This document shows positions 2,020-4,537 of a stretch of DNA of 34,637 nucleotides, piece by piece. This stretch comes from Nitrospirota bacterium (GTDB taxonomy: Bacteria > Nitrospirota > UBA9217). The position numbers and the translations under genes are program-made. Position 1 is the stretch's first letter. Every line of letters begins with the position of its first letter. The stretch covers positions 1 to 34,637 of the forward strand of contig JAOUEV010000036.1 in NCBI GenBank assembly GCA_029858565.1. Direction: 5' to 3'. The notes below the pieces were generated by a model. That model was not told the DNA's origin and ran no database searches. It worked only from the letters and a program-made list of their open reading frames with translations.

Positions 2020-2703
2020 ATGCTGAATGCCATGAAACAGCCCAGGAACGTGTCGCTTTTCAAGGACCTCTCCGATGCCGAGTATAAGGAGCTGGAGCCT
2101 TATCTCGCGACCTCGGAGATCAAGAAGAAGGAAACGATCTTCTCCGAAGGGGAGCCCCCGGAATGGTTCTATGTCGTGCTTTCCGGCAAGGTCAAGATCA
2201 CCAAGCTGTCCCAAGACGGCAAGGAGATCATCCTCGAGGTCATATCGCCTACAGATATCTTCGGCGGCGTCGCGGTGATCAAGGGATTCCCCTATCCTGC
2301 CAACGCGGTCGCAATGGAGGACTCGGAGATCCTCAAGATCTCCCGCAAGAACCTGATGCGCCTGGTGGACCGTTTTCCGAACCTCATGTACTGCATGGCC
2401 ATGCAGCTGGGCGACCGGATGAAGAGCTCCTACGATTCGCTCAAGAATATCGCCCTGGAGCGGGTCGAAGCCAGGATCGCCGCTCTGCTGCTCAAGCTTG
2501 CCGGCAAGATCGGCAAGGAGACCAAAGAGGGCCTTGTGATCGATATGCGGTTGACCAAGCAGGATGTGGCCGACATGGTCGGCACGACCGTTGAAACATC
2601 GATCCGCACGTTCAGCAAGTTCAAGAAGCAGGAACTGGTGTCCGAAGTGGACGGGAAGATCGTCATCAAGGACCGCGACGGTCTGGCGTCCTTTTCGTCA
2701 TAG
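2020..2703 (+). CDS. Crp/Fnr-family transcriptional regulator
   Basis: A 227-residue regulator. Residues about 10-125 form a cyclic-nucleotide-binding-type beta roll (GEPPEWFYVVLSGKVKI; SPTDIFGGVAVI), then a long dimerisation helix and a C-terminal winged helix (TKQDVADMVGTTVETSIRTF). The recognition helix keeps Glu192 and Arg196 in an FNR-like ETxxR arrangement. There is a single cysteine, in MYCMAM, so it lacks the four-cysteine Fe-S set of FNR and the ligand is unknown. DNR/NnrR-type nitric-oxide sensors also lack that cluster, so NO or another small ligand is possible, but that is inference. The start at 2020 avoids an upstream extension that overlaps the queD promoter; ATG at 2032 is an alternative. 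Likely targets are the two dyads at 3239 and 3313. Confidence 0.9.
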   Translation: MLNAMKQPRNVSLFKDLSDAEYKELEPYLATSEIKKKETIFSEGEPPEWFYVVLSGKVKITKLSQDGKEIILEVISPTDIFGGVAVIKGFPYPANAVAMEDSEILKISRKNLMRLVDRFPNLMYCMAMQLGDRMKSSYDSLKNIALERVEARIAALLLKLAGKIGKETKEGLVIDMRLTKQDVADMVGTTVETSIRTFSKFKKQELVSEVDGKIVIKDRDGLASFSS

Positions 2704-3180: not shown

Positions 3181-3211
3181 TTACTGACCTCCTCGGGATC
3201 TTTTTGCAGAG

Positions 3212-3254
3212 AGTATAGCATACTGACACGGCTGCGGCTATGATGCCGGTCATA
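3212..3254 (-). promoter_or_regulatory. Class II Crp/Fnr-type promoter of the oxidase-like gene
   Basis: On the minus strand an extended -10 (TGCTATACT; hexamer at 3212-3217) predicts a start at about 3205, 25 bases before the ATG. There is no recognisable -35 box. Instead a perfect dyad TATGA-N6-TCATA occupies 3239-3254 (centre 3246.5), exactly -41.5 from the predicted start, the class II activator position of Crp/Fnr proteins. Confidence 0.7.
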
Positions 3255-3312
3255 CATGCCGGCAATGCTATTTGTCCGCCGGTCCTGCATCTCTCCTATG
3301 TTTTTCCTGCCC

Positions 3313-3354
3313 TATGATATGCGTCATACTGTTCCTGGCGGAACGTGGTATCAT
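3313..3354 (+). promoter_or_regulatory. Class II Crp/Fnr-type promoter of the DUF1858 operon
   Basis: A second perfect TATGA-N6-TCATA dyad lies at 3313-3328 (centre 3320.5). It is followed by an extended -10, TGGTATCAT (hexamer at 3349-3354), predicting a start near 3361-3362, so the dyad sits at about -40.5 to -41.5. No clear -35 is present. The flanking bases (C before, C after) match the other dyad, giving a shared 5-6-5 palindrome. Confidence 0.7.
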
Positions 3355-3392
3355 AAGTCCACAACAAGGACCCAAGACCCAAGGAGGTTGAC

Positions 3393-3605
3393 ATGACCGC
3401 AGAGAAGAATAAAGTGACCAAGGACACGCTCATCGGCGATGCTATCAAGAACGTACCCGGAGCAAGGGCCGTCATTGAGAAGTATTTCGGCAACGGCTGC
3501 TTCACCTGCCCTGGCATCAACGTGGAGTCCATATCCTTTGGCGCCATGATGCACAATCTGGACCCGGACAAGATCGTTAACGAGATCAACGAACAGGAGG
3601 GATAA
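3393..3605 (+). CDS. DUF1858 (ScdA_N-like) domain protein
   Basis: A 70-residue single-domain protein with the DUF1858 pattern: TKDTLIGDAIKNVPGARAVIEKYFGNGCFTCPG, where Cys-x-x-Cys follows the YFGNGC turn. This domain is also found at the N-terminus of ScdA/YtfE di-iron proteins for Fe-S repair under nitrosative stress, and beside hybrid-cluster proteins. The stand-alone form is common in anaerobes and its biochemical role is not established. A strong Shine-Dalgarno AAGGAGG lies 5 bases before ATG. The next gene begins one base after the stop, so the two are translated together. Expression is probably controlled by the Crp/Fnr-type site at 3313-3328. Confidence 0.85.
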   Translation: MTAEKNKVTKDTLIGDAIKNVPGARAVIEKYFGNGCFTCPGINVESISFGAMMHNLDPDKIVNEINEQEG

Positions 3606-3606
3606 C

Positions 3607-3744
3607 GTGACAAAACCGGAGATCAAATGCTTTGTCTGCGGGTCTGACGACACCGCCAAGACATACCTGCCCTGCTATCACGAAGGCAAGGAAAAGATCG
3701 TCTGTACCCGCTGTCTTCCCGCGCTGATCCATGGATCTCACTGA
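3607..3744 (+). CDS. Small double-CxxC protein (45 aa)
   Basis: A 45-residue frame starting at GTG 3607, with AGGAGG six bases upstream (inside the end of the DUF1858 gene) and TGA at 3742-3744. It holds CFVCG near residue 8 and CTRC near residue 33, spaced like a small zinc ribbon, with a further Cys-Tyr-His between them. Codon use and the ribosome site support a real gene, and a strong terminator follows. I do not recognise a named family. Co-transcription with DUF1858 suggests a metal- or Fe-S-related function. Short length and the GTG start make it easy for gene callers to miss. Confidence 0.7.
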   Translation: MTKPEIKCFVCGSDDTAKTYLPCYHEGKEKIVCTRCLPALIHGSH

Positions 3745-3773
3745 AGAGATTTTACCGCTACTTTCACGATGCA

Positions 3774-3800
3774 GCCTCCGGATATCCGGAGGCTTTTTTT
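3774..3800 (+). terminator. Rho-independent terminator of the DUF1858 operon
   Basis: GCCTCCGG-ATAT-CCGGAGGC (3774-3793), an 8-bp GC-rich stem, is followed directly by seven T (3794-3800) and another T-rich run. It sits 30 bases after the stop of the 45-residue gene and insulates queC. Confidence 0.9.
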
Positions 3801-3831
3801 ATTTTTTTGAATAGAATTTCCTGTTCGTTCT

Positions 3832-3847: not shown

Positions 3848-4537
3848 ATGAAGAATGAATTAGCAGTCGTACTGGTAAGCGGCGGCATGGACAGCTGCGT
3901 TACTGCCGCGATCGCGAACAGGAGCCACCGCCTTGCCTTCCTGCACGTGAACTACGGCCAGCGGACCGAAGGCCGTGAGCTCCTCTCGTTCAACGAGATC
4001 GCGGATTTTTACAAGGCGGAAAAGCGCCTTATCGTGAGCATCGAGCACCTGAAGGTGATCGGCGGATCGGCACTTACTGACATTAATATCCCAGTCCCGG
4101 AGACCGGCCATTCTCAATCCGCAATCCGCAATCCGCAATCCGCAATTCCGGTAACCTACGTTCCCTTTCGCAACGCCCATCTCCTTTCGATCGCCACCTC
4201 ATGGTCAGAAGTGATCGGGGCCCGCTGGATATACATCGGCGCTGTTGAAGAGGACAGTTCAGGTTACCCCGACTGCAGGGAAGTGTTCTACCAGGCTTTC
4301 AACAAGGTGATCGAAACGGGGACGCGGCCTGAAACGCGGATCGAGATCGCAACACCTCTGATCCACATGAAGAAAGCCGAGATCGTGAAACAAGGAAGAG
4401 AGCTGGGCGCACCGCTCCACCTCACCTGGAGCTGTTATCAGGATAATGAAAAAGCCTGTGGAAAATGCGAGAGCTGCCTTTTTCGGCTGAAGGGTTTTCG
4501 CGACGCGGGCGTGACAGATCCGATCCCCTACCGTTAG
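3848..4537 (+). CDS. queC: 7-cyano-7-deazaguanine synthase QueC
   Basis: A 229-residue ATP-dependent enzyme that converts 7-carboxy-7-deazaguanine and ammonia to preQ0 in queuosine synthesis. The N-terminal PP-loop VSGGMDSCV (residues about 10-18) binds [16 protein letters not shown] segment and SGYPDCR are typical. The C-terminal zinc site is [17 protein letters not shown]. Length is normal for the family. The loop between [11 protein letters not shown] and IPVTYVP is filled by a translated heptanucleotide repeat (4115-4142) not expected in the family; this loop is naturally variable, so the enzyme is probably active. It lies behind a strong terminator and has no visible Shine-Dalgarno. QueD is at 1566; queE and queF are not in the window. 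Confidence 0.95.
4115..4142 (+). repeat. Heptanucleotide tandem repeat (CAATCCG x4) inside queC
   Basis: Four perfect CAATCCG units run from 4115 to 4142, followed by a degenerate CAATTCCG (4143-4150). They are translated as part of a variable loop with the period QSAIRNP. Because the unit is 7 bp, gain or loss of one copy shifts the queC reading frame, and only multiples of three copies are neutral. Confidence 0.95.

Follow-up and report, generated by a model that had tools for sequence, protein, structure and literature searches.

Twin TATGA-N6-TCATA operators beside a Crp/Fnr regulator and a predicted nitrogen-oxide regulon in Nitrospirota

The window analysed here, a 34,637-nt stretch of DNA from a groundwater-type Nitrospirota bacterium (contig JAOUEV010000036.1), carries a gene for a Crp/Fnr-family regulator and, next to it, a divergent pair consisting of an oxidase-like gene and a DUF1858 gene, whose intergenic gap holds two TATGA-N6-TCATA dyads (Table 1). 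The cluster is flanked by a PTPS/QueD-like gene (1566-1934, PF01242) and a QueC-like gene (3848-4537), an order that is kept in close relatives. The QueC-like open reading frame contains a short tandem repeat, caatccgcaatccgcaat, at about 4110-4150, which gives rise to a 10-residue insert in the protein.

Table 1. Features of the locus and target genes of the dyad (positions in the window unless a contig or locus is named)
Feature	Position	Strand	Remarks
Crp/Fnr-family regulator, 227 aa from ATG 2020 (ATG 2032 also possible)	2020..2703	+	PF00027 E=2e-25, PF13545 E=5e-18
Oxidase-like gene: 135-aa membrane protein, like the CcoN/COX1 H-x-H haem-ligand segment	2773..3180	-	PF00115 E=9e-11, above cut-off
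Intergenic gap between oxidase-like gene (-) and DUF1858 gene (+), a target pair	3181..3392		212 bp; twin dyads
-10 hexamer TATACT of oxidase-like gene, extended by TGC (3220-3218)	3212..3217	-	predicted +1 at about 3205
Operator 1, TATGATGCCGGTCATA	3239..3254	.	TATGA-N6-TCATA; centre at -41.5 from predicted start of oxidase-like gene
Operator 2, TATGATATGCGTCATA	3313..3328	.	TATGA-N6-TCATA; centre at about -40.5 from predicted start of DUF1858 gene
-10 hexamer TATCAT of DUF1858 gene, extended by TGG (3346-3348)	3349..3354	+	predicted +1 at about 3361
DUF1858 gene: 70-aa protein, Hcp-associated redox-disulfide family	3393..3605	+	PF08984 E=2e-10; TIGR03980 45.4 bits, cut-off 44.95
45-aa protein with two CxxC pairs, GTG start	3607..3744	+	predicted second gene of DUF1858 operon
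Predicted intrinsic terminator of DUF1858 operon	3773..3803	+	9-bp stem, then T run
norC with adjoining norB	L008; norB C74:69839-71107		norB against solved cNOR NorB E=5e-114
hcp	L005		TIGR01703 match
FrdX-like gene (presumed resemblance)	L011		no Pfam match
Multihaem cytochrome	L002		preceded by dyad in source genome
Cytochrome c'-like protein	L014		E=2e-4, below Pfam cut-off
Two NapH-like ferredoxins	L007, L013
CBS protein with HPP downstream	L006
YwiC-like protein	L015
Zinc-ribbon protein	L003
Membrane protein without assigned family	L004

An earlier, sequence-only reading of this DNA had called the minus-strand gene haem-oxidase-like, and this label is backed both by the Pfam match and by a match to CcoN structures (E=5e-10); residues H39, H41 and H58 are invariant in the alignment. 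A fold search with the protein's model contributed little beyond the sequence match, its best hit being weak (E=0.03). The protein shares the COX1/CcoN H-x-H segment with the haem-copper oxidases CcoN and NorB and is weakly similar to NnrS (E=0.004), but it has only four predicted helices and no full haem-copper active site. The DUF1858 protein, which contains an invariant C-F-T-C motif, had been equated with ScdA_N; profile searches gave no ScdA_N match and assigned it instead to the Hcp-associated redox-disulfide domain, and a RING-finger label was likewise rejected by them. In most of the relatives with a preserved cluster, the small CxxC protein is encoded directly 3' of the DUF1858 gene.

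Operators 1 and 2 are the only perfect dyads found by a pattern scan of the whole window, and their starts lie 74 bp apart. Their coordinates and geometry had been given correctly, while the description of the two dyads as identical holds for the half-sites and not for the N6 cores, which differ. The TATACT hexamer begins 21 nt after operator 1 on the minus strand and the TATCAT hexamer 20 nt after operator 2 on the plus strand, offsets that match the earlier placement of the dyad centres. A scan for consensus -35/-10 pairs found no -35-like hexamer with either extended -10 in the gap, as had also been proposed.

The source genome (3.92 Mb, 144 contigs) contains 15 perfect TATGA-N6-TCATA sites, whereas the reversed pattern, used as a control, occurs 0 times; the stricter CTATGA-N6-TCATA has nine strand-wise matches against 0. 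One-mismatch dyads numbered 90 against 46 in the control; because about half of them are expected by chance, they were not read individually and the perfect sites were taken as the informative ones. At 13 of the 15 perfect sites, a -10-like hexamer lies 20-22 nt away and faces a gene. Two perfect sites (L001 and L012), located inside genes and lacking a -10, were rejected as functional sites. In one relative, G014, nine of the 15 loci read fall within long frames or at their beginning and lack a suitable promoter, and counts in AT-rich genomes thus overstate the number of functional sites.

The dyad is strongly conserved beside both genes of the pair. Counting each distinct upstream region once and accepting a dyad within 200 bp, a perfect dyad was found in 37/43 orthologous upstream regions of the oxidase-like gene and 30/32 of the DUF1858 gene (67 of 75 when pooled), with 0 matches to the reversed control; the survey of relatives suggested by the sequence-only reading therefore turned out in its favour. 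The class II geometry that it had claimed is also borne out, for offset 21 dominates in the orthologs, where a -10-like hexamer takes this position in 28 of the 37 oxidase-side and 21 of the 30 DUF1858-side promoters. Gene order with twin dyads is conserved in relatives, and in six loci (L025, L026, L029, L033, L038 and L052) the two genes are separated by a FrdX-like gene; a third dyad is present there, giving each transcription unit its own. Where a genome lacks a close regulator and its oxidase-like homolog is distant (33-42%; L113, L114, L117 and L118), no perfect dyad accompanies the gene, and in family f16, whose regulators are 55-60% identical, the site is one base off the consensus. 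The genome G112, which is 98% complete and has no close regulator, nevertheless carries an oxidase-like gene with a perfect dyad (C75:32605-32994, L110), and there the dyad may be read by another factor. The predicted circuit recurs across much of the phylum Nitrospirota.

The regulator has matches above cut-off to PF00027, PF13545 and PF00325, which place it in the Crp/Fnr superfamily with a cNMP-binding-like sensor domain and a Crp-type winged helix, and its orthologs in Nitrospirota are 55-87% identical. Its recognition helix reads G-T-T-V-E-T-S-I-R, with V-E-T-S-I-R at CRP positions 180-185, and the form V-E-T-[S/A/T]-I-R is kept among the orthologs. FNR has V-E at positions 180-181 and Ser at position 184. 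The helix, earlier described as FNR-like ETxxR, reads V-E-T-S-I-R, in which Ile occupies the place of the FNR Ser. Only three PF13545 proteins occur in the source genome; the other two have the helices R-E-V-V-S-R and R-E-A-V-S-K, so that Arg180 is absent only from the window regulator. A previous study correlated R180 with base G3 of the half-site, and E181 with base A6 (Rodionov 2005, PMC1274295); by this rule, a protein with V180 and E181 is expected to recognize a half-site without G3, as in TATGA.

The association between motif and regulator extends beyond the locus. Among 118 Nitrospirota genomes, the 35 that encode an ortholog (at least 55% identity) have on average 11.9 dyads (control 2.1) and the 72 without one 2.7 (control 2.1), a difference with p=4e-15 when kinship is left uncorrected; this correlation is confounded by ancestry. 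Summed over the 35 regulator genomes, the dyads amount to 416 against 74 in the control, and nine genomes without an ortholog show a modest excess. The regulator and the oxidase-like gene coincide in 34/35 genomes each. In G014 and five other genomes of family f11, the regulator gene is located elsewhere, yet the twin dyads stay beside the oxidase-like/DUF1858 pair. The proposed link between the dyads and the neighbouring regulator is thus supported by a motif excess that follows the regulator through the 118 genomes and by twin dyads that persist where the regulator is unlinked. The regulator's own promoter contains no dyad in any of 42 distinct upstream regions (250 bp), even with one mismatch allowed. 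Autoregulation via the dyad was rejected on this ground, and the suggestion that three transcripts form one regulon is retained for the oxidase-like and DUF1858 sides and dropped for the regulator gene.

The target genes, taken from the loci around the sites, widen the picture considerably: what had been described as a mini-regulon local to the gap would comprise about 13 promoters in the genome, including those of norCB and hcp. A perfect dyad is present upstream of norC in 3/3 regions and of the FrdX-like gene, a label that we presume from its resemblance, in 9/9, as well as of hcp in 2/2. Of the earlier suggestions (NO, oxygen or redox stress), the one of NO gains support from this comparison, as dyads precede norCB, hcp, FrdX-like, NapH-like and cytochrome genes, and napA in a relative. 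In that relative, G005, many of the sites of the source genome recur, and the dyad is also found before a DUF2249 gene, a gene for an nrfA-like cytochrome c552 and napA, which is truncated at the end of the locus (NCBIfam NapA, 705 bits). A single cluster in Nitrospirae GWF2_44_13 (L033) combines the oxidase-like, FrdX-like, DUF1858, CxxC-protein, nrfA-like and norC genes with dyads between them. For the nrfA-like gene, a dyad within 200 bp was found in only one of five regions, and one lies about 190 bp upstream in L029 and L033. Upstream of the dyad-bearing CBS-HPP pair, we also noted a gene for a Protoglobin-PsiE fusion (L006 444-1337, PF11563 and PF06146).

As to the signal, the regulator gives few indications of its own. 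It has no His and one Cys, which is Leu or Asp in some orthologs, while M99, M123, M176 and M186 are conserved Met residues; HcpR of P. gingivalis senses NO through bound haem and involves Met68 (PMC12750200). The FNR-type N-terminal cysteine cluster for a [4Fe-4S] centre is absent from the sequence, and a profile alignment with mycobacterial CRP shows Gly, Tyr-Pro and Val in place of the cAMP-contacting Glu, Arg-Ser/Thr and Arg180. The score of the regulator against the CRP equivalog was 84 (cut-off 266), and its fold matches were generic Crp proteins with poor superposition, which do not indicate a sensor. Sensing of NO by haem or an Fe-S cluster is not evident from a protein with no His and a single non-conserved Cys. 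Because FNR cysteines, cAMP contacts and His are all missing, the signal was deduced from the target genes alone.

The protein shares features with several known regulators. The operators of DNR/NnrR are of the FNR-like type TTGAT-N4-ATCAA. As in DNR/NnrR systems, nor genes seem to be placed under a Crp/Fnr protein, which is deduced here from the dyad before norC and the adjacency of norB, but the operators have a different sequence, and the match to DNR (65.7 bits) is more distant than that to mycobacterial CRP (84.6 bits). FNR shares V-E and class II promoters with the present system and differs in its cysteine set, in Ser184 and in the half-site, TTGAT rather than TATGA. The fold and the TnTGA-N6-TCAnA framework are those of CRP/GlxR, GlxR and mycobacterial CRP being the nearest solved relatives, whereas the cAMP contacts and Arg180 are replaced. 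The closest functional parallel is HcpR, also a Crp/Fnr regulator of a nitrogen-oxide regulon with hcp and FrdX-like genes as its core, both preceded by perfect dyads here, and with nap and nrf in extended regulons; E181 is kept as in delta-proteobacterial HcpR. Unlike HcpR systems, norCB is a predicted target and the regulator gene lies beside the oxidase-like/DUF1858 pair rather than hcp. The published HcpR operators are TGTGA-N6-TCACA, TTGAC-N4-GTCAA or GTAAC-N4-GTTAC (Rodionov 2005, PMC1274295; D. desulfuricans HcpR1/HcpR2, PMC5701242; C. difficile hcpR, PMC12915319), none of which is TATGA-N6-TCATA, and we provisionally set the regulator apart from HcpR by its operator rather than by placement in a tree.

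The sites, their spacing and conservation, the target genes and the co-occurrence of regulator and motif were computed directly, and from them we infer that the regulator is the binder, that it activates rather than represses and that NO is its signal. Quite probably, then, the dyads are the operators of the 2020-2703 regulator, a class II activator whose regulon, comprising about 13 promoters, is switched on by nitrogen oxides, most likely NO. The protein would bind TATGA-N6-TCATA centred at about -41.5 and stand in for the missing -35, and the divergent oxidase-like/DUF1858 pair would form one node of a regulon that also takes in norCB, hcp, the FrdX-like gene, the multihaem and c'-like cytochromes, two NapH-like ferredoxins and others. 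It would be turned on when nitrogen oxides, above all NO, build up during nitrate or nitrite respiration, and would work like the HcpR and DNR/NnrR regulons with an operator of its own.

A reading of the dyads as palindromes arisen by chance, or as structural elements that play no part in regulation, is hardly credible: the information per site is low, but the conservation in 67 of 75 upstream regions and the 15 genomic sites stand against 0 in both controls. They could be true activator sites read by a different protein, either of the other two PF13545 proteins or an unrelated factor, and G112 does keep the dyad without a close regulator. This is unlikely, since the Arg180 of the other two proteins predicts TGTGA-type half-sites rather than TATGA, no perfect dyad lies near their loci, and across genomes the excess of the motif goes with the window regulator. 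Slightly less likely still is a repressor at the dyads, released by NO, for which D. desulfuricans HcpR2, modelled as a repressor (PMC5701242), offers a precedent; dyads at -41.5 in place of a -35, with a sharply conserved -10 offset, have the layout of class II activation.

The nature of the signal leaves more room. An FNR-like activator of anaerobiosis or redox responses, cued not by NO but by low oxygen or a redox metabolite, is a possibility of some weight, though not the one we favour: several targets (napA, NapH-like, cytochromes) are general anaerobic respiratory genes and no NO-sensing residues are evident, but FNR's defining cysteine cluster is missing, and norCB, hcp and the FrdX-like gene, which form the core of the targets, make up the usual NO/HcpR set. 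Returning to the NO-responsive activator, we tentatively raise a further idea, that it may represent a separate Nitrospirota lineage with its own operator code, in which V180 and I184 read A at the third base, with a sensing chemistry that uses neither His-bound haem nor an Fe-S cluster nor cAMP, and with the DUF1858/oxidase-like pair as new NO-handling parts. The literature searched contained no earlier description of a TATGA-N6-TCATA operator or of HcpR in Nitrospirae. In anoxic groundwater, Nitrospirota of the Thermodesulfovibrionia type are abundant; they possess norBC and nap genes (PMC11033732), and within the literature searched no nitrogen-oxide regulon was described for them. The sharp operator consensus makes the regulon searchable throughout the phylum, places by association the uncharacterised oxidase-like, DUF1858, CxxC-protein, YwiC-like and CBS-HPP genes in the NO/nitrite response, and would add a new pairing to the Crp/Fnr residue-to-base correlation.

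Finally, the target promoters differ in their leaders. The norC, hcp and FrdX-like genes have leaders of 24-47 nt with a Shine-Dalgarno sequence, whereas in the NapH-like, YwiC-like and zinc-ribbon genes the predicted +1 coincides with the first base of the ATG or is displaced from it by no more than one position, and a Shine-Dalgarno sequence is missing. As two independent features coincide there, the predicted starts gain support, and the mRNAs of these genes are probably leaderless. The leaderless candidates in the source genome and G005 are L007, L013, L015, L003, L077, L075 and L082.
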